Source: Anaeroplasmataceae bacterium
GTDB taxonomy: Bacteria > Bacillota_I > Bacilli_A > Acholeplasmatales > Anaeroplasmataceae
Assembly: GCA_029067355.1 (NCBI GenBank)
Contig: JAIEEQ010000064.1
Span: 1 to 38,822 of the forward strand
Direction of reading: 5' to 3'
Length of the DNA: 38,822 nucleotides
The notes beneath the pieces were generated by a model. It saw only the letters and a program-made list of their open reading frames with translations. It ran no database searches and had not been told where the DNA came from. Shown in pieces: positions 4,799-16,826 of the stretch. Position numbers and translations under genes: made by a program. Positions within the stretch are counted from its first letter, which is position 1, and each line of letters opens with the position of its first letter.

Positions 4799-5248
4799 AT
4801 GCATAATCCAGAAAAAATAATTTTAAGTAATATGTGTATGATATATAATGGGGAAGAAATTTTAGTTCAAGATCGTGTGAATCCGAGTTGGCCTGGTTTG
4901 GCTTTTCCAGGAGGACATGTTGAGAAATTTGAATCTATTGTTGATTCAGTAATACGAGAAATTCAAGAAGAAACTGGACTTATAGTAGAAAATTTAAAAC
5001 TATGCGGTATTAAGCAGTGGTTTACTGATAATATTAGACATATTTGCTTTCTTTACAAAACGAATCAATTTAAGGGTAGTTTGATTTCTTCAGAAGAAGG
5101 ACAAAATTTTTGGATTAACAGAAAGGATTTATCTAAATATAAGCTGGCATCCAACTTCATAGATATGATAGAAGTTTTTGAAAATGATGAAATAACTGAA
5201 CAATATAGAGTCTTTGTAGAAGGAAAGAAGATAAGTATATTAAAATAA
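4799..5248 (+). CDS. NUDIX hydrolase (MutT / 8-oxo-dGTP diphosphatase-like)
   Basis: A single NUDIX domain of 149 aa. The NUDIX box begins at GGHVEKFES and ends with REIQEETGL, so the GX5EX7REUXEEXGU metal-binding pattern is complete. The family hydrolyses nucleoside diphosphates linked to another moiety. The LSNMCMIYN start and the GLAFPGGH segment resemble MutT-type 8-oxo-dGTP diphosphatases of Firmicutes, but substrate cannot be assigned from the box alone. AAGGAGAT precedes the ATG. It has its own promoter and ends in a strong terminator shared with the convergent SPFH gene. Confidence 0.88.
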   Translation: MHNPEKIILSNMCMIYNGEEILVQDRVNPSWPGLAFPGGHVEKFESIVDSVIREIQEETGLIVENLKLCGIKQWFTDNIRHICFLYKTNQFKGSLISSEEGQNFWINRKDLSKYKLASNFIDMIEVFENDEITEQYRVFVEGKKISILK

Positions 5249-5249
5249 A

Positions 5250-5278
5250 ATGGTGCGATTTTAGTCGCGCCATTTTTT
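5250..5278 (+). terminator. Bidirectional terminator between NUDIX and SPFH genes
   Basis: A 9-bp stem (5250-5258 with 5265-5273, one G-T pair) has a T-run on the plus strand (5274-5278) and an A-rich stretch on its left side that gives U-rich RNA on the minus strand. It can end both convergent genes. Confidence 0.8.
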
Positions 5279-5279
5279 G

Positions 5280-6272
5280 TTACTTCGTAATTAAACCACC
5301 TATCATTGAACTTAGGGTATCGTTGGTTAAAACTTCAGGAAGTTTGCCATCCCAAGTATCATAGAATATAATGGAAAGAACAATGTCTGTACATTCCTTA
5401 TAGGTCATTGTGTTTTGTGTATTCTCATACAAATTATCTATTAAAGCTTGAACCTTATTGATATAAGCATTTGCAGCCTCACCATTAGCTTCACCCTCAA
5501 TCCGGATAGAATATGCTGCCGCGTCTGCCAATGTTTTTTCAATCTGAGCTTGGTTTTCTGCTGTGATTAGATTTGCAGCAGCCTCCAGTTCAGCAACCTT
5601 AATTTTTTGTTCAGCCTCAGCCTTTTGAGAAAGAATTGCTTCAACCTCAGCACCACCATCAATATCATCAAAGCTTACATTTACTAAGGTGATATAATAG
5701 GTTTCTAATAGAGTTTTTGTCAAATCCTCCTTGAAATCAATACGAGCCGTTTCTAACCCCGTAGATAGTAGTTCAAAGATATCATAATTGATAGTAGAAC
5801 TTTGTAGGCAGGCCTTGACCAGAGTATTCAACGCCTCTGCAGGAATGTCTGTGCTGTTGGTAATACGATAGAATTTGCCAGCATTATCCTTGTCAATTTT
5901 ATAGATGATGGATAAATCAAAGGTTGCATATTGGCCGTCATTGGTTTGCCCTGTTGTTCTTACACTTGCACTACGATTTGCTGTGGAAATTTGAGTGATA
6001 TGCTCAAAGATAGATTTTGTATGTACACCCTCTCCATAGGTGTCATCCTGAACACCGCCCTTCATTTCATCATAGACAATGCCTACTTGGTTTGCTTCTA
6101 CCTTAGTAAACAAACCAAAAACAAGAATTAACATACCTGCAAATCCTAACAAACTCAAGAAGTACAGCTTGTTATTTTTCTTTTTCTTTTTTTGTTGTAG
6201 GAAATAAATTACACCAAAGATTCCTCCTACTAGAATTAAGGATAAAACGATGCTAACAATTAAAATAATCAT
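5280..6272 (-). CDS. SPFH/Band-7 (stomatin-prohibitin-like) membrane protein
   Basis: A 330-aa protein with two hydrophobic N-terminal segments (about residues 1-25 and 37-58). A Band-7/SPFH domain (EANQVGIVYD through about residue 210) follows, then an Ala/Glu-rich coiled-coil region (VEAILSQKAEAEQKIKVAEL onward). SPFH proteins form membrane-associated oligomeric scaffolds; no enzymatic role is implied. AGGAGG lies nine bases before the ATG at 6272. The gene stands alone between two terminators. Its leader carries a yybP-ykoY-type riboswitch, which suggests manganese-dependent expression. That is unusual for this family as far as I know. Confidence 0.85.
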   Translation of the reverse strand: MIILIVSIVLSLILVGGIFGVIYFLQQKKKKKNNKLYFLSLLGFAGMLILVFGLFTKVEANQVGIVYDEMKGGVQDDTYGEGVHTKSIFEHITQISTANRSASVRTTGQTNDGQYATFDLSIIYKIDKDNAGKFYRITNSTDIPAEALNTLVKACLQSSTINYDIFELLSTGLETARIDFKEDLTKTLLETYYITLVNVSFDDIDGGAEVEAILSQKAEAEQKIKVAELEAAANLITAENQAQIEKTLADAAAYSIRIEGEANGEAANAYINKVQALIDNLYENTQNTMTYKECTDIVLSIIFYDTWDGKLPEVLTNDTLSSMIGGLITK

Positions 6273-6508: not shown

Positions 6509-6537
6509 TAGACGTATCTAGCTTTTTCTTGTATAAT
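6509..6537 (+). promoter_or_regulatory. Promoter of the six-gene HAD-GNAT to MurC-like operon
   Basis: A perfect TATAAT (6532-6537) with a TAGACG -35 box (6509-6514, 4 of 6 matches) and a 17-base spacer lies 43 bases before the first start codon. It diverges from the SPFH promoter. Confidence 0.55.
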
Positions 6538-6580: not shown

Positions 6581-8023
6581 ATGATAAATAAAATTGTATT
6601 TGATTTAGATGGAACACTATGGAAAACAGAAGAGTCTTATCTTTATGCCTATAAAAGGGTAAAGGAAGAGTTTGGACTGGAGGGTTTACCTGAGGAAGAG
6701 ATTCTTTCTGTGGTGGGAATTGAACTTTCCTATGTCCGTGATTATATATTTGGCAAATATGAAAATGCTGATGAATTAACATGGCGTGCAGTAGAGTATT
6801 CTACGGAGTATGTATGGAAATATCCTTGCTTTTGCTCTTTAAATTTAAAGAGAATTTTTAAAGAGTTAGAAGAAAAATATGAGCTTTATATTATATCTGG
6901 CTGTCCTCGTATTTATATGGAGGCATTTTTAGATTGTTCAGGTGTAAAAGAATATGTTAAGAAGTCCTATACTTTAGAGGATGGAAATAAAAAAGATATT
7001 TTAAAGGAACTTTCAAAAGAAAATAAAATAGTTTTTGTTGGAGATTCCTCTCAGGATTATTCATCTATTTCTGACCATACGAAGGTATTTTTTTGCTATG
7101 CTAAATATGGTTATTTCTCATTAGATACATACGATTATGCAATTTCCTCTTTAGATGAAATTTTAGATTTGATGAAGAAGATAGAAATTAAGGAGAGAAT
7201 GCTTTTGAATCAATCCTATGAGGTTGTAGGATATAAGGATTCTAGCTTAACCTTAATTTATAAAAATTCAAAATCAGCCTATTTTGGTTTTTTATCCTTA
7301 GGAGAATTATCCAATGTTAAGGAAATTTTAAAAAGAGTAAAAGAAAGAAAAATAAATATTTATGGTCCCTTTGATGGAAATACGTGGTATTCTTATCGCC
7401 TGGCTATTGACTCCTTTGATTTTGCTTTATATCCAGATTGTGCAGGCAGTAAAGAAATTCTAAACTTGTTTTTAAATGAGGGCTTTTGTATATATTGCAC
7501 GTATAGCTCTACATTAGCTCCAATAAATAAGCGCGTTTGGGAGCATTGTAGGAAAAACAAGCTTCCAAAAGGATTACAAATTGCTGTTTATCAAAATGAG
7601 GAATGCTATAATCATATAGAAGAGTTATATAAAATATCTAGTATAGCCTTTCAAAAAGCAGACTTTTATGAGCCAATTTCTTTTGAGGATTTTAAAGATA
7701 TTTATTTGAAAAATATTCAACTTGCACATCCAGATATTCTTATGATTTATGATAAAGAGAAGGCCATCGCGTTTAATTTTTGTTATGAGGATTTAGAAAA
7801 AAGATTTTATGTATGTAAAACAATTGCAATTCTTCCAGAATATCAAAATAAAAGTATTTTAAAGCTTCTTATTAACTATTCTTATCAGATAATGGAAGAA
7901 AAAGGCTATAAAGAGGTATTATATCATTTTCAAAATGACAGAACTAAGGTTTTGGATGGGATTTTTAAAAATAACTTTATTCGTCAAAAAAAATATGGAG
8001 TATTATGCTATGAGAATCAATAA
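6581..8023 (+). CDS. HAD-family phosphatase fused to a GNAT acyltransferase-like domain
   Basis: Residues 1 to about 205 form a HAD phosphatase of the phosphoglycolate-phosphatase type: FDLDGTLW at 7-14 gives the nucleophile and acid Asp pair, IISGCP the second motif, and FVGDSSQDY the metal-binding motif. Residues about 210-480 are not HAD. The end (AILPEYQNKSILKLLINYSY near 420, then YHFQNDRTK) resembles the acetyl-CoA-binding part of a GNAT domain, possibly a tandem GNAT. It is a phosphatase and acyltransferase in one chain, reminiscent of FkbH proteins, although the motifs are not FkbH-like. First gene of the operon; its end overlaps the next gene by 14 bases. Substrates are unknown. Confidence 0.75.
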   Translation: MINKIVFDLDGTLWKTEESYLYAYKRVKEEFGLEGLPEEEILSVVGIELSYVRDYIFGKYENADELTWRAVEYSTEYVWKYPCFCSLNLKRIFKELEEKYELYIISGCPRIYMEAFLDCSGVKEYVKKSYTLEDGNKKDILKELSKENKIVFVGDSSQDYSSISDHTKVFFCYAKYGYFSLDTYDYAISSLDEILDLMKKIEIKERMLLNQSYEVVGYKDSSLTLIYKNSKSAYFGFLSLGELSNVKEILKRVKERKINIYGPFDGNTWYSYRLAIDSFDFALYPDCAGSKEILNLFLNEGFCIYCTYSSTLAPINKRVWEHCRKNKLPKGLQIAVYQNEECYNHIEELYKISSIAFQKADFYEPISFEDFKDIYLKNIQLAHPDILMIYDKEKAIAFNFCYEDLEKRFYVCKTIAILPEYQNKSILKLLINYSYQIMEEKGYKEVLYHFQNDRTKVLDGIFKNNFIRQKKYGVLCYENQ

Positions 8024-9080
8024 TCAAACCTGCAAACGGTGCATAAATGATAAAACAGTTAAGCATATAGCTTTTGATAAAAATGGAGTTTGTAATTTTT
8101 GTAATTCCTATGATAGAATTGCAGATAAGCTAGAGAATAGACAATATTTAGAAAGACTTTTTTTGAGCAAACTAAAGAATCATACCCACACCTATGATGT
8201 GGCTCTTGGCTTTAGTGGTGGAAAGGATTCTACCTATGTATTATACCAACTGGTTCATGATTATAAATTAAAGGTGATAGCCTATACCTTAGATAATGGC
8301 TTTTTATCAGAAGAGGCAAAAACTAAAATTAACCAACTTGTAAAAGAGCTTGGCGTAGAGCATGAATATGTAACCTGTGATATGGAGATATTAAAGGAAA
8401 TGTATAAGGTTATGGTTCAAAAATATTTATCTCCTTGTATTGCCTGTTCTTTTTTAGGATATGCTGTTATGCTGAATTATGCAACCAAGGTAGATGCTGC
8501 CATAGGAATTCATGGAAGAAGTAGAGCACAGATGTTTCGCAATTATGCAGAAGATGTTGATGATGTTTTTAAGCCATTTATTTTGGAGGGCTTAAAGGAA
8601 GAGCCACGATCAATGAATGAGCTTGTTCATGATGTCATCCTTAAAATAAAAGGACTTGTTGATGCTAGACTAGCTGAACGAATTGAAAAAAATTTATTAA
8701 ATGATGGACTTCAGTATGGGTTTCGTGAATTTGTTTCTTACTTTTTATATCATCCTTATGATAAGGAAGAAATCATTAAAACATTAGTAACAAATACCTC
8801 ATGGAGAGTTGAAAGTGAGGAAGAGCATTTTGATTGCTTAATTCATCATGGGGCTTTATACCTAAAGGATCAAATCGCAAGAAGAAGTCATCTTTTGCCT
8901 GAATATAGTTTTTTAATTCGTAGTGGACAAATTACACGTGAGGAAGCTATAAGGGCTATAAGCTATACACATCCAAAGAAGCAGGCAAAGCTAGAATTAA
9001 GGAAGCTTTGTCATTATGCTAATATATCTTATAGACGAGTTATGTTGAAAGCGGGTATTTATAAAAGGAGATGGTGGTAA
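8010..9080 (+). CDS. PP-loop ATPase, N-acetyl-sugar amidotransferase-like (WbpG/PseA type)
   Basis: About 356 aa. Two CxxC pairs near residues 8-11 and 28-31 (CKRC, CNFC) form a zinc knuckle. It is followed by the adenylating PP-loop SGGKDS at 69-74 and a further SPCIACSF segment. This layout matches WbpG/PseA-type enzymes, which adenylate an amide oxygen and replace it with nitrogen, for example in acetamidino sugars. No HisH/HisF-type ammonia partners lie nearby, so the nitrogen or sulfur donor is unknown. I place the start at ATG 8010, nine bases after GGAG at 7997-8000. An in-frame opening from 7935 lacks a ribosome site and lies inside the previous gene. The gene overlaps both neighbours. 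Confidence 0.72.
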   Translation: MRINNQTCKRCINDKTVKHIAFDKNGVCNFCNSYDRIADKLENRQYLERLFLSKLKNHTHTYDVALGFSGGKDSTYVLYQLVHDYKLKVIAYTLDNGFLSEEAKTKINQLVKELGVEHEYVTCDMEILKEMYKVMVQKYLSPCIACSFLGYAVMLNYATKVDAAIGIHGRSRAQMFRNYAEDVDDVFKPFILEGLKEEPRSMNELVHDVILKIKGLVDARLAERIEKNLLNDGLQYGFREFVSYFLYHPYDKEEIIKTLVTNTSWRVESEEEHFDCLIHHGALYLKDQIARRSHLLPEYSFLIRSGQITREEAIRAISYTHPKKQAKLELRKLCHYANISYRRVMLKAGIYKRRWW

Positions 9081-11884
9081 TGGTCTTTTTTAAGCGATAT
9101 ATCCTCTTGTTTTTTGAAATTATTCTTTTATATTTTGTATGCGTATCAAGTACGCTTTATACAACTCCGTTCTTTACAAGTACTCTTTGTGTATTTTTAC
9201 CTTTCTTTTATTTGGTGAGAGTTATAGATGACCTTGTGGATTATGATGAGGATTTTAAAAATAATAAGGCTCCTGTTAGTAAGAATATTTTAATCATTTT
9301 ATGTGCTGTTTTCCTTATACTGACCATCTTTTTAATTTGCTATTTTAAGCTTTGGCTTGTATTTGTTTTATTCACTCTTCTTCTTTTATTTGTTTTCTTG
9401 AAAAGAGGGGCTGTCTTTGCAAAGATGCTTTTACTTCCTGTGGCTTATTGTATTTTTATTTTCTATTCCTCCTCCTTTAAAAGTTGGAATATTGTGATTG
9501 CTGTTCTATTTTTTATTCTTTCTCTTTTATATGCTGTTTATAAGTCAATGCTTCAGGTTGAATTTTATGATGATTATAAGGAGATTAGAAGTATTGGAGG
9601 AAAGGGATATCACTTAGGCAATGCAAGTATTAAAAATACGCCAGCCTATTTTACGATTCCTTATGAATTTTTTAAAGCCTTTCAGAAGGATGAAAAAGAA
9701 AAAGAGCGTTTAAAGGCAAAGATACATTCCTTTTGCAGGAAGAATCAGCTGTATGCTGTTCGATCCTCTGCTATTGATGAGGACTCCTTAAAGCATAGCT
9801 TTGCAGGAATCCATGCCACAAAGCTCAATGTTAGGAAGGAAATGGTTTTTGATGCAATTTTTGAGGTGTATCAAAGTGCTTTTTCTGATTTGGCAATCAA
9901 ATATAGAAAAGCCAATCAGCTCTCTACGGAACAAATAAAAATGGCTGTTATTGTTCAAAAAATGGTACAAAATCCAGAGTATTCAGGGGTTATCTATACA
10001 ATGAATCCCCAAACGAATGACCCAGATGAGATGATGATTAGTATTGTGGAGGGACTAGGAGAAGAGCTTGTCAGTGGGAGAAAGGATTCAAAGGACTATT
10101 TCTTATCCGCTAATCATATAAAAGGAGATACCTCCTTTCTTTCTATAAAGATTTTAAAAAGGCTAGAAAATCTTGCCAATCAGCTTCAAAAGAAGTATGA
10201 TGCCTTTTTAGATATTGAATTTGCAGTTCAAAGGAATAGGGTATATTTTCTTCAGGCTCGTCCAATTGTACCCTATGCTGATCTTCATCCAAGTGAAAGA
10301 TTACTTTTGATTGACAATTCAAATTTGATTGAATCCTATTATGGAACAACCTCTTATTTAACTCGTAGCTTTGCAAAAAGTATTTATCAAGGTGTCTATA
10401 CAAAAACCCTTGAGGCAGGGCATGTTCGGAGGAAAATTATTGACTCTTTGGAGGATTCCTTAAAGAATATGCTTTTTGAATATGAGGGGAAACTTTATTA
10501 TAATTTAAATAGCTGGTATCATTTAACAAGCATTTTCCCAATGAAATCCTCTACTGCCTATATGGAACAGATGATGGGGGTGTCTAGTGGCACAACACAG
10601 CATAAAAGAGTAAAATTAAATTGGCTTGATATGGTAAAGCTTGGGATTTGTTTTATTCATCGATTGCGAAAAATGGAACAATATTCAGTTCTTTTCATAA
10701 AAAAATTTAATGAAGTTGTTTTTCCCTATTATGGTCATGCCCTAGAAGGAACAACAGAAGAATTGATGGAGCTTTACCATAGAATCGAACAGGAGATTTT
10801 ATCTGATTTTGCTACACCAATTCTAAATGATTGTGCAGTTATGTTTTATAATGGCAGGCTGAGCAAAAAAATTAAGAAAAAGTATGAGAATTATTATGCA
10901 GAAATTTTATCAGCGTGTATATCCTTTAGTGGAACTATGGAAAGTGCCCTTGTTTGTGAAGAATTTAATCATATAGTAAATTTAATAAAATCAGATGCTT
11001 CCTTGTTTTCTGATTTTTCTTGTCTTTCTCCTTTAGAGCTTTATAAAAAGTATCATACCTCAAATACTGAAATTAGCCAGTTGATTCAAAGCTATCTTTT
11101 GCATTTTGGTTCTAGAGTAATGAATGAGCTTAAACTGGAAACAATCACTATGATAGAAGATCCTACCCTTCTTTATAAACAAATTAAAGAGGGATTGGCT
11201 GCCCCTTTAAAAAAAGAACCCTCTAAACCAGATGGGGTAATTCCTAAAGAACTTAGAAGGCTTGCTGAAAAAACCAGGTATTATGTTGTGAACAGAGAAC
11301 GTCTGCGATTAAAAAGAACCTATATTTTCTCCTTAGTACGTAATATTTTCTTGGCAATTGGTAGAAACTGGGAAAAAGAAGACAAGATAGATGAAATTAC
11401 AGATATATTTTATTTGACAAAGGAAGAAATATTTGAATCTGTCCCTAATTTAAAGGAATTAATATTTAAGCGCAAGAAAGAAATGCGTGAATTTGAAGCA
11501 AAACCCTATTATTACAGAATTAGTTTCTATCCACAGCGTGTTGTTCCAGTAGAACGAAGGAGCATCTCAAATGAACTAAAGGGATTAAGCACTGGAAAAA
11601 CGATTGTTCGCGGAAGAGTATCCATTATGAATGAGGCGACAGACCCATTTACACCAGGAGATATTATTGTCACCTCTAGGACAGATCCAGGCTGGATTTC
11701 TTTGTTTCCACTTGCGAAAGGGTTGATTGTTGAGCATGGAAGTATGCTTTCTCATAGCTTTGTTGTTGCAAGAGAAATGGGATTGCCTGCCATTGTGGGA
11801 ATTCCAGAGATAACCTCTCTTTTGCATAACGGAGATATTATAACCTTAGATAGTGTTTCGGGGGTGGTTCATATTGAAAAATAA
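9080..11884 (+). CDS. Membrane domain fused to a PEP-synthase / rifampin-phosphotransferase-like dikinase
   Basis: About 934 aa. Residues 1-155 hold about five hydrophobic segments. Between them RVIDDLVDYDED resembles the first aspartate motif of UbiA prenyltransferases, but the second motif is not visible. Next comes a PPDK_N ATP-grasp domain (about 165-400: VRSSAIDEDS, SFAG, VQKMVQNPEYSG, QARPI) and a helical middle region (about 400-835). Last is a swivelling phospho-His domain with GSMLSHSFVVARE, putative catalytic His near 892. The ATP-grasp/middle/His order is that of rifampin phosphotransferase and lacks a PEP-binding barrel, so it probably phosphorylates a small molecule or lipid. ATG 9080 overlaps the previous TAA (TAATG); AGGAG lies at 9066-9070. 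Confidence 0.75.
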   Translation: MVFFKRYILLFFEIILLYFVCVSSTLYTTPFFTSTLCVFLPFFYLVRVIDDLVDYDEDFKNNKAPVSKNILIILCAVFLILTIFLICYFKLWLVFVLFTLLLLFVFLKRGAVFAKMLLLPVAYCIFIFYSSSFKSWNIVIAVLFFILSLLYAVYKSMLQVEFYDDYKEIRSIGGKGYHLGNASIKNTPAYFTIPYEFFKAFQKDEKEKERLKAKIHSFCRKNQLYAVRSSAIDEDSLKHSFAGIHATKLNVRKEMVFDAIFEVYQSAFSDLAIKYRKANQLSTEQIKMAVIVQKMVQNPEYSGVIYTMNPQTNDPDEMMISIVEGLGEELVSGRKDSKDYFLSANHIKGDTSFLSIKILKRLENLANQLQKKYDAFLDIEFAVQRNRVYFLQARPIVPYADLHPSERLLLIDNSNLIESYYGTTSYLTRSFAKSIYQGVYTKTLEAGHVRRKIIDSLEDSLKNMLFEYEGKLYYNLNSWYHLTSIFPMKSSTAYMEQMMGVSSGTTQHKRVKLNWLDMVKLGICFIHRLRKMEQYSVLFIKKFNEVVFPYYGHALEGTTEELMELYHRIEQEILSDFATPILNDCAVMFYNGRLSKKIKKKYENYYAEILSACISFSGTMESALVCEEFNHIVNLIKSDASLFSDFSCLSPLELYKKYHTSNTEISQLIQSYLLHFGSRVMNELKLETITMIEDPTLLYKQIKEGLAAPLKKEPSKPDGVIPKELRRLAEKTRYYVVNRERLRLKRTYIFSLVRNIFLAIGRNWEKEDKIDEITDIFYLTKEEIFESVPNLKELIFKRKKEMREFEAKPYYYRISFYPQRVVPVERRSISNELKGLSTGKTIVRGRVSIMNEATDPFTPGDIIVTSRTDPGWISLFPLAKGLIVEHGSMLSHSFVVAREMGLPAIVGIPEITSLLHNGDIITLDSVSGVVHIEK

Positions 11885-12923
11885 CTATTTTAAAGAGAAG
11901 AACTACATTCATTACAGCAATTGCCATGAGGATTTTTTGTTGCTGAAGAGGTATATTCCAGCTCATGCTAAGAAGATTCTTTCCATCGCAAGTGCCTTAG
12001 ATAATTCCTTAGCCTTTTTAGAAAATGATGAAGTAGAGGTTCTTGCTGTTGATTCTAATCTGAGTCAGGTTTATCTTTCTAATTTAAAAATAACAGCGAT
12101 TCGGCTTCTATCCTATAAAGAATTTTTAATCTTTCTTGGATTCCAAGCAGGAGATTCTGTAAAGCTTTATGGCACCATAAAGGATCATTTGGATCCTCAT
12201 ACTAGAGAATATTTTGATAGTCGTCCTTTCCTTATAAAAAACAAATTGATTCATGCTGGTCGTTTTGAGCATTATTTTCATTTGTTTAAAAGAAGAATAT
12301 TACCTCTTGTCGCTTCAAAAAAAAGAATTCAACAATTTATGTCGTGTACTTCCTTAGAAGAACAGGTAAAACAATATAAAAAATATATCAATAATTTTCG
12401 TTTTAAGATATTGTTTCATGTCTTTTTTTCAAAAAAAGTTATGTCAAAGCTGGGAAGAGATAAAAGTTTCTTCACATATTCTAAGGGAGCCTTAGCCAAT
12501 CAGCTCAAGGAAAGAGTTGAATTAGGATTGATGTCTAATCTAAATTGCACAAATCCTTATCTTCAGTATGCAATGCTCAATCAGTATAAGGAGCTTCCCT
12601 ATTATGCAAAGGAAGATGTATTTTATAAAATCAAAAGAAATATCTCTCACATCACAGTAGCTCATCAGTCCTTTGAGGAAGCTTTGCTGGAGCATAAGGA
12701 ATTTGACTTTATGAATCTATCAGACATATTTGAATATATGCCAGAGGATATTTCGGGTTATGAAGAACTTATAAAGAAAGCTTGTAATCCGTATGCAAAA
12801 ATTTGTTTTTGGAATATGATGAATTTAAGAGAATTTAAAGGAATGAAACGAATCAATACAAAAGAGGATTTAAAAAGAGATAAAGCAATGTATTATCAGG
12901 ATTTTCTTGTCTATGAGGTGTAA
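11874..12923 (+). CDS. BtaA-like (DUF3419) S-adenosylmethionine 3-amino-3-carboxypropyl transferase
   Basis: About 349 aa. BtaA moves the aminocarboxypropyl group of S-adenosylmethionine to diacylglycerol, giving diacylglyceryl-homoserine, the precursor of betaine lipids. Recognisable blocks are ILSIASALDNSLAFL (SAM-binding), VDSNLSQVYLSNLK, AGRFEHYFHLFKRRILPLV, GRDKSFFTYSKG, NPYLQYAMLNQY and FMNLSDIFEYM, in BtaA order. There is no BtaB N-methyltransferase in the window, so the product is probably not the trimethylated betaine lipid; the acceptor may differ. I prefer TTG 11874, six to seven bases after GGGGTGG, over GTG 11853. The gene overlaps the stop of the dikinase gene, which indicates translational coupling. 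Confidence 0.75.
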   Translation: MKNNYFKEKNYIHYSNCHEDFLLLKRYIPAHAKKILSIASALDNSLAFLENDEVEVLAVDSNLSQVYLSNLKITAIRLLSYKEFLIFLGFQAGDSVKLYGTIKDHLDPHTREYFDSRPFLIKNKLIHAGRFEHYFHLFKRRILPLVASKKRIQQFMSCTSLEEQVKQYKKYINNFRFKILFHVFFSKKVMSKLGRDKSFFTYSKGALANQLKERVELGLMSNLNCTNPYLQYAMLNQYKELPYYAKEDVFYKIKRNISHITVAHQSFEEALLEHKEFDFMNLSDIFEYMPEDISGYEELIKKACNPYAKICFWNMMNLREFKGMKRINTKEDLKRDKAMYYQDFLVYEV

Positions 12924-12924
12924 T

Positions 12925-14205
12925 ATGATAGAGCATTTTTTAACAGTAGATCGCCTGGCCGTTCAATATATAAAAAATCATAAGGTTTTTAAAAAAAGCT
13001 TTAAGGAGCTATATCATGATATATATAGGATGATTGGTCTTTTTAAAAAGAAAAATTTAAAGCCAAAGGATAAGGTGGCTATTTTTATACCGCCTTATCA
13101 GTATATCTTTTATGTTACCCTATTTGCGGGAATGCTTTATCAGCTGAATTTAGTGGTTTTTGATTCTTATGAGAAAAAGCATTTAAAAGAATTGGTTCAA
13201 ATAGAAAAGCTTTCCTACTGCTTTGTGGACAATAAGACAAGATTTCTTTCTATGGTCTTGCTGCCAAAATGTAAAAAAATATGTGTGAGTTCATTTTCAA
13301 AATATAGGGAAAAAGAAGCTCCTGCTTTTCATGAAGACTCCATTCTGCTCACAACCTTTACCTCAGGAACAACGGGAACACCCAAGCCAATCTACAGAAC
13401 CATAAGCTTTTTACTCAAACAGGTAGAACAAATCAAATATGAAATTAACTTGAATTTGTTTTCTGTTGTTTTTGGTGGATTGCCAATATATAATATTTTA
13501 TCTATTTATTCTCTTAAAACGACCTGCATTGCTAGGAAATTAAAAACCATTGCAATCTTTAAACCGGACTGTGTTTTAACTACTATTCAAAAAATATTGA
13601 CAGAAAAAAGAAGCTATCCTGAAGTTAAGAATGTTATGCTTGGAGGTGCAATTCTTTATTCGTGGGAAGCAAAAAAGAGTAAGGAAGTCTTTCCTAAAGC
13701 TCAAATTACATATGTTTATGGAGCAAGTGAAGGAGCAATCATCTATAAAACAAATTTAGATTCTTATATAAAAAATCCATTTATTTTTGATATTCCTGCA
13801 AAGGATATTAATGTAACGATAGAACAAAAAAACTTCTCTGGTGTTGGAGAGATTGTTATTTATGGAGATAAGGTGAACACCTTAAATCATATGCATTATA
13901 CAGGAGATTTAGGAAGGCTAGAGAATGGCAAGCTTATCCTAGTTGGAAGAAAAAAATATTCTTCCTTAGAATTAGGAATTTATAATTACTGCTTAGATGA
14001 GGAACTTAGAATGGAAAATGAAACAAACATTTTTACATTTTATTATGATCAAAAGATTTATGTGGTTTCTGAAAAAAAACTAAAACATAAAAGAGAAGGA
14101 TTCTATTATATTACTATGAAGCAACTCCCTATGGATTTAAAGCATAAAACAAAGCTAAACTATCAGGAATGCATTAAGCAAATAAATAAGCAAAAGAATA
14201 AATAA
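12925..14205 (+). CDS. ANL-superfamily acyl/aminoacyl-adenylate ligase, short
   Basis: AMP-forming ligase of about 426 aa, shorter than usual acyl-CoA synthetases (500-560 aa). The P-loop is TTFTSGTTGTPKP near residue 150; the A5-type motif is VYGASEGA; the A7/A8 region is YTGDLGRLENG with GRKKYSS. The small C-terminal domain is reduced (about 80 aa) but ends in a Lys-rich segment (KHKTKLNYQE) that may carry the adenylation lysine. It would activate a carboxylic acid as an adenylate for transfer to CoA, a carrier or an amine. ATG 12925 follows GAGGTG. Two in-frame upstream starts (12907, 12913) sit inside the BtaA-like gene. Confidence 0.78.
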   Translation: MIEHFLTVDRLAVQYIKNHKVFKKSFKELYHDIYRMIGLFKKKNLKPKDKVAIFIPPYQYIFYVTLFAGMLYQLNLVVFDSYEKKHLKELVQIEKLSYCFVDNKTRFLSMVLLPKCKKICVSSFSKYREKEAPAFHEDSILLTTFTSGTTGTPKPIYRTISFLLKQVEQIKYEINLNLFSVVFGGLPIYNILSIYSLKTTCIARKLKTIAIFKPDCVLTTIQKILTEKRSYPEVKNVMLGGAILYSWEAKKSKEVFPKAQITYVYGASEGAIIYKTNLDSYIKNPFIFDIPAKDINVTIEQKNFSGVGEIVIYGDKVNTLNHMHYTGDLGRLENGKLILVGRKKYSSLELGIYNYCLDEELRMENETNIFTFYYDQKIYVVSEKKLKHKREGFYYITMKQLPMDLKHKTKLNYQECIKQINKQKNK

Positions 14206-14239
14206 AAAATATAAAGCATAGGATTAATGGGTGATGACT

Positions 14240-15472
14240 ATGCTTTTTTATCTTATTGGAATTAAAGGCTCAGCCTTGAGTGCATTAGGTAAAATTCTTT
14301 CTAAAATGGGACATATAGTGCGTGGAGTGGATGTTGAGGAGGAATTTTATACGCTTAAGCAACCATTGAATATTAAAGTGGAAAGTTTTTCTAATATGAA
14401 ATTAAAGAAATGCTATTTTTATATTATTGGAAATGCATTTGTAAAGCATAGTGTTTCTAAGTTTTTACAAAATATGAATTACAGATATATGCTATACCCT
14501 GAATTTTTAAGCTATTTTTTCAAAGATAAAAAATGGATTTGTGTAAGTGGTACCTCAGGTAAAACAACAACAACCAAGATGCTTGCGACAATATTTCCTA
14601 AGACAACCAGTCTGATTGGAGATGGGTCCTATCAGGTGGGGAAAGATGGGCATTTTATTTTAGAGGCTTGTGAGTATCGGAATACCTTTTTACATTATCG
14701 TCCTTATATATCTTTAATTTTAAATGTGAATTATGATCATATTGATTTTTTCAAAACTAAGGAAGCCTATGAAGCCTCCTTTATTAAGTTTGCAAGCCAA
14801 AGCAAAATATGTGTTGTTAATGGAGATGAGTTTTCCTATCGAGATAAAACTATCATTACCTATGGCAGAAAGGAAAGCAATGATGTCGTTTTTACTTATG
14901 ACAGGGGAAAGGTTACTATTTTAAGAAAGACCTTTACCTTGCCTGTTCATGGATTAAAATATGCTTATGATTTTGTTGGAGCCTATCTGGTTGCAAAGCT
15001 TTTAAATCAGTATGACCATATCATTCAGTCAAGAATGATACAGTTTAAAATGCCTAAGCGCAGGTTTGAAAAAACGATATGGAAGGATCAAGTCCTTATT
15101 TCTGATTATGCTCATCATCCAAATGAAATAGAGGCTATCTTGGAATCCATAAAGGAACAATATCCTGCAAAGCGAAAGATTTGTATTTTTGAGCCTCACA
15201 CCATTTCTAGACTTCAATGCTTTGTTGAGGAGTATAAAAAAATTCTAAGTCAGTTTGATGAATGCTATCTTTATCCTTTGTTTAGTAGTGCAAGAGAGGC
15301 TCACAACCTTATTCTTGAAAAAAATCTTTATAAACAGCTTTCCTTTCAGAATTATGATTTTCATACTAAACAGCAATTCTTTAATGAAAGGGATGTCGTG
15401 ATTGCTTTTTTAGGGGCTGGTGTGATTGATCGAGCATACGAAGCGTATAAAAAGGAAGCAGAAGAGAGATAA
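14240..15472 (+). CDS. MurC-family ligase (UDP-N-acetylmuramate-L-alanine ligase-like)
   Basis: Mur ligases join an amino acid to a carboxylate through an acyl phosphate. At 410 aa this is short for MurC (430-470). The N domain begins FYLIGIKGSALSALGKIL, the P-loop is GTSGKTTTT near residue 103 (MurC usually has GTHGKTTT), and LEACEYRNTF, SDYAHHPNEI and FEPHTISRLQ are MurC-specific blocks. It may be the only MurC of the organism, or a paralogue adapted to this operon. The altered P-loop residue, short length and company of a BtaA-like enzyme make the second plausible. ATG 14240 follows GGGTGATG. The gene ends in a terminator, closing the operon. Confidence 0.75.
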   Translation: MLFYLIGIKGSALSALGKILSKMGHIVRGVDVEEEFYTLKQPLNIKVESFSNMKLKKCYFYIIGNAFVKHSVSKFLQNMNYRYMLYPEFLSYFFKDKKWICVSGTSGKTTTTKMLATIFPKTTSLIGDGSYQVGKDGHFILEACEYRNTFLHYRPYISLILNVNYDHIDFFKTKEAYEASFIKFASQSKICVVNGDEFSYRDKTIITYGRKESNDVVFTYDRGKVTILRKTFTLPVHGLKYAYDFVGAYLVAKLLNQYDHIIQSRMIQFKMPKRRFEKTIWKDQVLISDYAHHPNEIEAILESIKEQYPAKRKICIFEPHTISRLQCFVEEYKKILSQFDECYLYPLFSSAREAHNLILEKNLYKQLSFQNYDFHTKQQFFNERDVVIAFLGAGVIDRAYEAYKKEAEER

Positions 15473-15634: not shown

Positions 15635-16633
15635 ATGGCAAACACTACAATATATGATGTTGCTGGAGCAGCTAAGGTTTCATTAGCTACTGTCAGTAGA
15701 GTAATGAATAACCCTGAAAAGGTAAATCCTGAAACAAGAGAAAAGGTATTACGCGTTATTAAAGAGTTAGGATATCGTCCTAATGCTATTGCACGTGGTC
15801 TTGCAAGTAGAAAAACCACGACAATTGGAATTGTAATGGCGGATGTATCTAGATCCTCTACTGCACAATTATTAGGAGGAATACAGGACATTGCAAAGAA
15901 ATATGAATATTCCATTAAAATTTTCTCAATCAGTGCAGATGAGGATATTACGGATGCTATGAGAACGGTTATAGCTGAACAGGTGGATGGAATTTTGTTC
16001 TTAAATGATGAATTGGAAAAAGAGCAAATGAAAATTGCAATGGATGCAATCAAGGATGCTATGATTCCAGTGGTTTTATCCAATGTTTTCTATGAGGATG
16101 AGGATATTCCAGGTGTTGCCATTAATTATGAAATGGCAACCTATGAAATCACAAAGAGAATGCTAAACTATGGCAGAAAAAATGTTTATCTTTTTTCAAC
16201 AGTTCGGAAGTATTCTGTTAACACTCAAAAAGAGGCAGGCTATATTGATGCTATGAAGGAAGCAGGATTGGAGCCTAAAATCTTTAGAACAAGTGGGGAT
16301 GTTTCTATCAACGCACTTCATTTTAAGGAGTTTTTTAAGGATATCAAAATTGATGGGGTAATTGCTGTAAGAGATAGCATTGCGATAAGCTTTATGAATG
16401 TTGCTCAGGAATATGGAGTTAAGATTCCAGATGACATTTCTGTTGTGGGATTACAAAATACAAAATATGCAATTTTATCTCGACCAAATTTGACCTGTGT
16501 TGATACTCCAGTATATGATATAGGAGCTGTATCTATGAGACTTCTTACAAAATTTATGAAGCAAGAAGAGGTTGGAAATCGAAAGGTATTATTGCCATAT
16601 CGTTTTATTAAACGAAAATCAACAAATTTATAG
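15635..16633 (+). CDS. ccpA: Catabolite control protein A (LacI family)
   Basis: CcpA is the global carbon-catabolite regulator of Firmicutes; with Ser-phosphorylated HPr it binds cre operators. The 332-aa protein has the LacI helix-turn-helix at about 5-25 (TIYDVAGAAKVSLATVSRVM), the hinge helix (YRPNAIARGLASRKT) and a periplasmic-binding-type core from about 62. The HTH and hinge sequence and the length match CcpA closely. GAGGTGAT precedes the ATG. It has its own promoter and a possible degenerate cre, and tyrS lies downstream, an order also known in Bacillus relatives. Other LacI regulators cannot be excluded formally, but the fit is good. Confidence 0.88.
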   Translation: MANTTIYDVAGAAKVSLATVSRVMNNPEKVNPETREKVLRVIKELGYRPNAIARGLASRKTTTIGIVMADVSRSSTAQLLGGIQDIAKKYEYSIKIFSISADEDITDAMRTVIAEQVDGILFLNDELEKEQMKIAMDAIKDAMIPVVLSNVFYEDEDIPGVAINYEMATYEITKRMLNYGRKNVYLFSTVRKYSVNTQKEAGYIDAMKEAGLEPKIFRTSGDVSINALHFKEFFKDIKIDGVIAVRDSIAISFMNVAQEYGVKIPDDISVVGLQNTKYAILSRPNLTCVDTPVYDIGAVSMRLLTKFMKQEEVGNRKVLLPYRFIKRKSTNL

Positions 16634-16639
16634 TTTTGA

Positions 16640-16826
16640 TGAAAAGATTTTAGTAGAATGAATTTTCTTTGTTTTAGAGAATCTGTATTTGGTGAAAACA
16701 GATCAAAGGCTTCATTTGAATTACACTCTTGGAGAAGCAATCAGTTTAAGTGTCATAGAGTTTCTATGGAACTAAGGTGGTACCGCGAAAGTTTATTTCG
16801 TCCTTAGATTTTTCTAGGGACTTTTT
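16640..16826 (+). ncRNA. T-box riboswitch (tyrosine) leader of tyrS
   Basis: The hallmark T-box AAGGTGGTACCGCG lies at 16774-16787. CTAAGG (16772-16777) can pair with CCTTAG (16802-16807) as antiterminator. Stem I is visible: AATGAA and CTTTG near 16658-16672 pair with CAAAG and TTCATT near 16704-16716. It carries a distal hairpin (ATCTGT/ACAGAT) and the GGTGAAAA apical motif. The specifier loop reads TGAATTACAC, giving codon TAC (16722-16724), which matches tRNA-Tyr. Uncharged tRNA-Tyr would stabilise the antiterminator and let tyrS be transcribed. The exact 5' end is uncertain. Confidence 0.9.
16800..16826 (+). terminator. T-box-controlled terminator
   Basis: Nine-bp stem (16800-16808 with 16813-16821) followed by TTTTT. 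Its 5' arm is the strand used by the antiterminator, so the two structures are mutually exclusive. Confidence 0.85.

Follow-up and report, generated by a model that had tools for sequence, protein, structure and literature searches.

What does a BtaA-like transferase make when its gene stands in a tight row with a phosphatase-acyltransferase fusion, a PP-loop ATPase, a membrane-dikinase fusion and an adenylate-forming ligase? The question is raised by a 38,822-nt contig of an Anaeroplasmataceae bacterium (the window; JAIEEQ010000064.1, our contig C61 of the 1.79 Mb, 97% complete assembly GCA_029067355.1), in which open reading frame (ORF) calls and domain libraries place six ORFs, all on the plus strand, that fill positions 6581-15472. 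An earlier note had read these as one six-gene operon that builds a homoserine-type group and then extends or amidates it. Our comparisons suggest that the first five genes form a self-contained, horizontally distributed biosynthetic cassette, which probably builds a homoserine-type, likely membrane-bound, molecule, and that the sixth is a housekeeping neighbour. The genes are lettered as follows, with start positions corrected by comparing relatives and junctions:

Gene A, 6581..8023, plus strand: HAD-family phosphatase domain fused to a tandem-GNAT acyltransferase domain.
Gene B, 8010..9080, plus strand: PP-loop ATP pyrophosphatase of the N-acetyl sugar amidotransferase (NASAT)/WbuX type.
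Gene C, 9080..11884, plus strand: N-terminal half-UbiA-like membrane domain fused to a phosphoenolpyruvate (PEP)-synthase/rifampin-phosphotransferase-like dikinase.
Gene D, 11874..12923, plus strand: DUF3419/BtaA-like S-adenosylmethionine (SAM) 3-amino-3-carboxypropyl transferase.
Gene E, 12925..14205, plus strand: compact ANL adenylate-forming ligase.
Gene F, 14237..15472, plus strand: murC, housekeeping UDP-N-acetylmuramate L-alanine ligase, a neighbour judged to lie outside the cassette.

To find further copies, a profile of D was scanned against 84,980 species genomes, which gave 16 loci, and the loci of relatives were added. Gene order and strand are identical in all 14 complete A-B-C-D-E blocks (the window, L010, L012, L026, L027, L028, L030, L031, L032, L033, L034, L084, L035 and L037), a conservation far above chance, and four further blocks (L011, L015, L025 and L029) are incomplete solely through contig ends. 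This supports the earlier note in its reading of a gene set around a BtaA/DUF3419-type transferase. Record titles assign the carriers to Anaeroplasmataceae and other Bacilli lineages, Clostridia, Treponema and one Fibrobacter metagenome-assembled genome (MAG), and every title that gives a source names a gut sample (rumen, colon or horse faeces). Bin labels may be wrong: identity between the Fibrobacter copy and the Treponema copies is 61-70%. Carriers are scattered: within the genus, 6 of 11 genomes have the block, the window's own counted, and few of 395 class members do. The five proteins show correlated pairwise identities (r 0.81-0.92), which argues that the block evolves as a unit; this correlation, a mean identity among distant carriers of ~0.43-0.52 and a cassette GC content of 0.23-0.48 that tracks host GC together point to an old, coherent and host-adapted cassette. 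Distant carriers have no flanks in common, and no transporter, regulator or carrier protein recurs around the blocks; variable flanks and the want of a recurring transporter suit a membrane or intracellular product. No cassette homologues were confirmed in viral contigs.

The junctions also set A to E apart from F. With the corrected starts (B at ~8010 and not 7935, C at ~9080, D at ~11874 with a TTG codon, E at ~12925 and F at ~14237), A/B, B/C and C/D overlap, and D and E are separated by 1 nt, with GAGGTG ahead of E. Between E and F lie ~31 nt, and F shows no translational coupling to E. The product of F matches the MurC model TIGR01082 best by far (4.5e-64, 217 bits, below the equivalog cut-off of 335) and has the AHHPNE motif. 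Among the six Mur-ligase-like proteins of the window's genome only F is MurC-like; read by sequence, the other five are two MurE-like proteins (at L017 on contig C50 and L018 on contig C76), one MurF-like, one MurD-like and one FolC-like protein adjoining valyl-tRNA synthetase. In each of four congeners (G001, G004, G005 and G008) F has a single close homologue and DUF3419 is missing, and wherever the contig extends far enough F keeps company with ccpA and tyrS in congeners with or without the cassette. G010 has the two on different contigs, the cassette on C4 and F on C10; in G006 they are 3.6 kb apart, with sugar-metabolism genes (rhamnose-type by eye) between E and F; in carriers of other taxa F is absent beside the cassette. 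Its sole-copy status, its murC-ccpA-tyrS context and its presence in cassette-free congeners rule F out as a pathway enzyme, and by homology and neighbourhood we regard it as the housekeeping murC of a conserved murC-ccpA-tyrS region, the cassette being a separate unit. The earlier note had proposed in advance that finding the genes apart in relatives would count against its operon: A to E stay in one coupled, conserved block, and F is found separately. The single terminator given for the operon's end does correspond to a hairpin, with an 8-bp stem across the F stop codon followed by U6, but it is weak (-10.3 kcal/mol, z = -1.5) and had no match in a consensus scan. Upstream of A, a sigma-70-like site lies at 6509-6537; such sites occur at chance frequency in this DNA.

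Two features of this neighbourhood were noted in passing. A T-box leader (RF00230, 98 bits) lies at window positions 16630-16808, upstream of tyrS. The region is also an insertion hot spot in the genus, with sugar-binding lipoproteins and glycosidase-like and major facilitator superfamily genes in the murC-ccpA interval of L010 and L011, and a rhamnose-type gene insert in the E-murC interval of L012.

The family assignments that the earlier note made for the six products hold in the domain calls (HAD with GNAT, PP-loop, PPDK_N with PEP-utilizers, DUF3419, AMP-binding and MurC). D, the single DUF3419 protein of the genome, matches PF11899 at 2.7e-44 (152 bits against a gathering cut-off of 28.2). 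In the BtaA reaction diacylglycerol receives the aminocarboxypropyl group of SAM (PMC3972451; PMC10491745), and because D belongs to this family it most likely transfers the same group. As the earlier note had said, no BtaB-like methyltransferase gene is present, either among A to E or among the immediate neighbours in the blocks. E is short, yet its ANL motifs are intact (TSGTTGTPK, YGASEG, TGD, KHKTK and an A10-type Lys; PF00501, 1.5e-16, 60.7 bits). Elsewhere, DUF3419-like proteins of ~280-290 aa occur in tandem, three per array, in one Bacilli family, f14 (L085 4340-6981 on G315:C2, L070, L072 and L088).

A joins two enzymes (Pfam HAD_2 8e-15, Acetyltransf_1 5e-5). Its N-terminal half is a phosphoglycolate-phosphatase-like HAD domain with DLDGT at residue 8 and GDSxxDY at 154, and its C-terminal half is a tandem GNAT. 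An AlphaFold2 model (predicted local distance difference test, pLDDT, 88.9) returned glucosamine N-acetyltransferase 5kgh, tandem GNATs, MprF-type domains and HAD phosphatases as Foldseek matches in the PDB; for the C-terminal half the top folds were glucosamine N-acetyltransferase, a mycobacterial tandem GNAT, MprF-type aminoacyl transferases and mycothiol synthase.

For B the best full-length model is TIGR03573/WbuX, at 144.9 bits, below the NCBIfam cut-off of 203.2. The protein keeps the PP-loop SGGxDS and a Zn tetracysteine (CxxC..CxxC), both invariant in the alignment, and adds a CxxC (143/146) and Cys276; all seven cysteines are invariant in 15 sequences. Its model (pLDDT 88.6) resembles LpNASAT 8wex most closely (TM-score 0.65), followed by TtuA sulfurtransferases. 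By sequence position only, C143, C146 and C276 are comparable to Cys142/145/233 of MmNcsA, which are [4Fe-4S] ligands (PMC10067955). These residues are no proof of a sulfurtransferase, because a HisH/HisF-linked NASAT (L131) has a similar CxxC. In four NASATs compared, a HisH neighbour is found in three and the CxxC in L131, not in L128-L130; HisH and HisF are absent from the cassette blocks. The closest relative of B outside the cassette interrupts a nonribosomal peptide synthetase (NRPS) adenylation domain in Roseovarius, which links this type of PP-loop protein to ANL chemistry, and a Streptomyces relative lies within a condensation-domain protein. In the Roseovarius protein (Roseovarius pelagicus NZ_CP106737.1, L127 6415-14463) a complete PP-loop ATPase domain with the cysteine pattern of B is inserted after the hinge and before the NGKLD motif; it is possibly a thioamide- or amidine-forming interrupted adenylation domain.

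C carries PPDK_N (1.7e-45) and PEP-utilizers (9e-22) domains behind a hydrophobic membrane segment, with the catalytic-type His of the dikinase in MLSHS (residue 892). Its closest solved structures are 5fbs/5hv1 (3e-68), deposited as PEP synthase, which we take to be rifampin-phosphotransferase (Rph)-type proteins, and it also matches PigC/RedH ligases. The membrane domain, of ~170 aa, is merely 25-57% identical to the window's across loci, yet the Asp residues of its RxxDDxxDxxxD motif (residues 47-58) are invariant in 12 loci. Comparison with full UbiA by hhalign gave 82% (E 1e-5) over the shared RxxDDxxDxxxD block; the second Asp motif of UbiA and its full length of 8-9 transmembrane segments are lacking. 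In L014 and L035 the transmembrane domain and the dikinase are separate ORFs. Another membrane-protein-dikinase pairing was seen on a Streptomyces clavuligerus megaplasmid (L099 10963-13806), where a PEP/pyruvate-binding dikinase related to C adjoins AfsA-like and ICMT-like genes and an oxidoreductase.

A second gene layout bears on the nature of this domain. In the Roseinatronobacter sp. S2 plasmid NZ_CP121116 and the Bacilli MAG G166, full-length UbiA, a dikinase, DUF3419, a membrane protein, a GNAT and an ANL enzyme are encoded collinearly, with neither a HAD domain nor a PP-loop gene. Pfam recognizes UbiA and ANL in both carriers, the dikinase and DUF3419 in the plasmid, and the GNAT clearly in G166, and the window's proteins match those of G166 at 1e-99 (C), 1e-45 (D), 7e-15 (GNAT part of A) and 3e-12 (E). 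Given the position of UbiA in this layout and the shared RxxDDxxDxxxD, the membrane domain of C is probably a half-UbiA, so called because the second Asp motif is lacking. The additional membrane protein was matched by neither Pfam nor NCBIfam, nor convincingly by any PDB entry; by eye it has KSxEG and RKxxH-like motifs, which we take to recall CTP-dependent polyprenol/phytol kinases, a likeness that no library confirmed. Among the 8 genomes of the taxonomic order around G166 there was no second carrier. A third context is seen on Rhizobiaceae plasmids, where DUF3419 comes after an adenylate-forming enzyme related to F390 synthetase (score above its cut-off) and stands beside a 369-aa protein that looks GNAT-like by eye, an assignment confirmed by no library. 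These clusters (L097 1808-8146 and L101 1754-6146) also encode a metallo-beta-lactamase-fold protein, with a beta-ketoacyl synthase III (KASIII) and an epimerase-type enzyme in L097, and are a possible further pathway of aminocarboxypropyl transfer. An ANL enzyme thus stands beside DUF3419 in three gene contexts and a GNAT in at least two, so that activation of an acid, with N-acylation of the new amine, is the simplest step common to them.

Upon the observed gene content and order, domains, motifs, co-evolution and homology to the second layout we build the following model, in which the chemistry, the acceptor and the order of steps are what we infer. A dikinase joined to a UbiA-type domain suggests phosphorylation chemistry at the membrane: through its Asp motif the half-UbiA domain may be a binding site for a lipid or polyprenyl (di)phosphate, and the dikinase half of C would phosphorylate, and so activate, the acceptor kept there. 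D would transfer aminocarboxypropyl from SAM to this membrane-associated acceptor. E would then adenylate a carboxylic acid, which the GNAT domain of A would place on the new alpha-amine. The HAD domain and B are peculiar to the gut layout and hint at a dephosphorylation and at an amidation or thiolation. Using ATP through its PP-loop, B would amidate a carbonyl or, by means of its CxxC...Cys set, thiolate it; the carbonyl may be that of the homoserine carboxyl or of the acyl amide. The HAD domain would take off the phosphate. As the product we tentatively favour a membrane molecule bearing homoserine that is N-acylated, amidated or thiolated, and not a betaine lipid. The earlier note's homoserine-type group, built and then modified, is retained in this model insofar as the recurring ANL and GNAT enzymes fit N-acylation and a membrane part is present; the Mur-ligase step is dropped. 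Bolder, and in our estimate doubtful, is the proposal of a new class of membrane molecule in gut bacteria, a homoserine-headed lipid, N-acylated and also amidated or thiolated, for whose synthesis by the five enzymes the half-UbiA domain, possibly as a dimer that rebuilds a two-Asp-motif site, would present the lipid substrate to the fused phosphotransferase.

Several observations weigh against the product we favour. The half-UbiA match spans only 30 columns, and RPxRP is missing together with the second Asp motif. The GNAT fold matches of A include sugar and aminoacyl transferases besides lipid N-acyltransferases, and in L035 (G028, 4962-6137) the HAD domain of A is truncated and its DxD missing while the remaining cassette is intact. 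D is only ~29% identical to the second-layout DUF3419, and a search for solved DUF3419 structures found none. Finally, the NASAT, HAD and glucosamine-acetyltransferase-like parts are compatible with amino-sugar chemistry as well.

Of the competing explanations, a soluble specialised metabolite survives best, and we consider it unlikely. D would here add aminocarboxypropyl to a small molecule, as for nicotianamine-type metallophores and isonocardicin, while E and B would act as an NRPS-adenylation-like unit with PP-loop tailoring, yielding a secreted signal, metallophore or antibiotic. The NRPS-associated relatives of B agree with this, as does a dikinase nearest to rifampin phosphotransferase with PigC/RedH ligase matches, and aminocarboxypropyl transfer is common in small-molecule pathways (PMC10491745). 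Against this reading, the surroundings of the cassette have no recurring carrier protein, transporter or regulator, every carrier retains a membrane domain whose motif is of the lipid-pyrophosphate type, and the second layout adds both a full UbiA and the membrane protein called kinase-like by eye. Decoration of an amino sugar or glycolipid seems to us still less probable. In that case B would be an N-acetyl sugar amidotransferase, the GNAT would acetylate an amino sugar, the HAD domain and dikinase would handle the sugar phosphate, and D would cap the glycolipid with homoserine; in favour are the best folds of B (LpNASAT 8wex) and of the C-terminal half of A (glucosamine N-acetyltransferase) and the galE gene that overlaps A in two Treponema loci. 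Yet HisH/HisF, which several bona fide NASAT loci carry, are missing here, B falls below the TIGR03573 cut-off, the flanks showed no recurring glycosyltransferase, and the second layout dispenses with B and HAD and retains the rest. That D, a clear DUF3419 member, only makes diacylglyceryl-homoserine, among loosely associated housekeeping genes, is improbable, given five genes kept together and in order across distant hosts with co-varying divergence, and no BtaB-like gene in the block. A six-gene pathway with the MurC-family enzyme as dedicated amide ligase can practically be discarded: F is adjacent and co-directional in the window and two relatives, but the genomic evidence set out above makes it a housekeeping gene.

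Comparison with described systems suggests where the cassette differs. Relative to the BtaA/BtaB pathway for diacylglyceryltrimethylhomoserine (DGTS), it shares D, a member of the family that contains BtaA (PF11899; PMC3972451), but lacks a BtaB-like gene in the block, always includes four other enzymes and has a D of a divergent subfamily. N-acylation of an amino-acid lipid head by an acyltransferase is a concept shared with the ornithine-lipid enzymes OlsB/OlsA; OlsB, however, puts an acyl group from acyl carrier protein on free ornithine (PMC3972451), whereas the cassette has a GNAT, an ANL ligase and a DUF3419 enzyme. B shares the PP-loop fold and the Zn tetracysteine ribbon with WbuX/LpNASAT (8wex; PMC10607449), and is distinguished by the missing HisH/HisF neighbours, the score below the family cut-off and the extra CxxC and Cys276, which resemble the [4Fe-4S] cysteines of NcsA/TtuA, with the similar CxxC of L131 as noted. 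C has the ATP-grasp, substrate and swivelling-His domain layout of the rifampin phosphotransferase and PigC/RedH dikinases, but is fused to the half-UbiA-like membrane domain and has other partners. Closest is the second layout, itself undescribed in the open papers searched, with collinear homologues of both halves of C, of D, of the GNAT of A and of E; unlike the cassette, it has a full-length UbiA and an extra kinase-like membrane protein and lacks HAD and PP-loop genes. The earlier note knew of no described pathway with this gene set, and we found none in open PMC papers, where absence is weak evidence. All the enzyme families are known; as far as the open literature was searched, the combination and the cassette are undescribed.

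If the model is correct, herbivores and other animals would have in their gut microbiomes a shared, undescribed DUF3419-based pathway, distinct from that of betaine lipids and spread across phyla. Aminocarboxypropyl transfer would then extend to a new product class, and functions would be suggested for several orphan families: DUF3419 proteins outside BtaA, UbiA-linked dikinases, and PP-loop enzymes without glutaminase partners.

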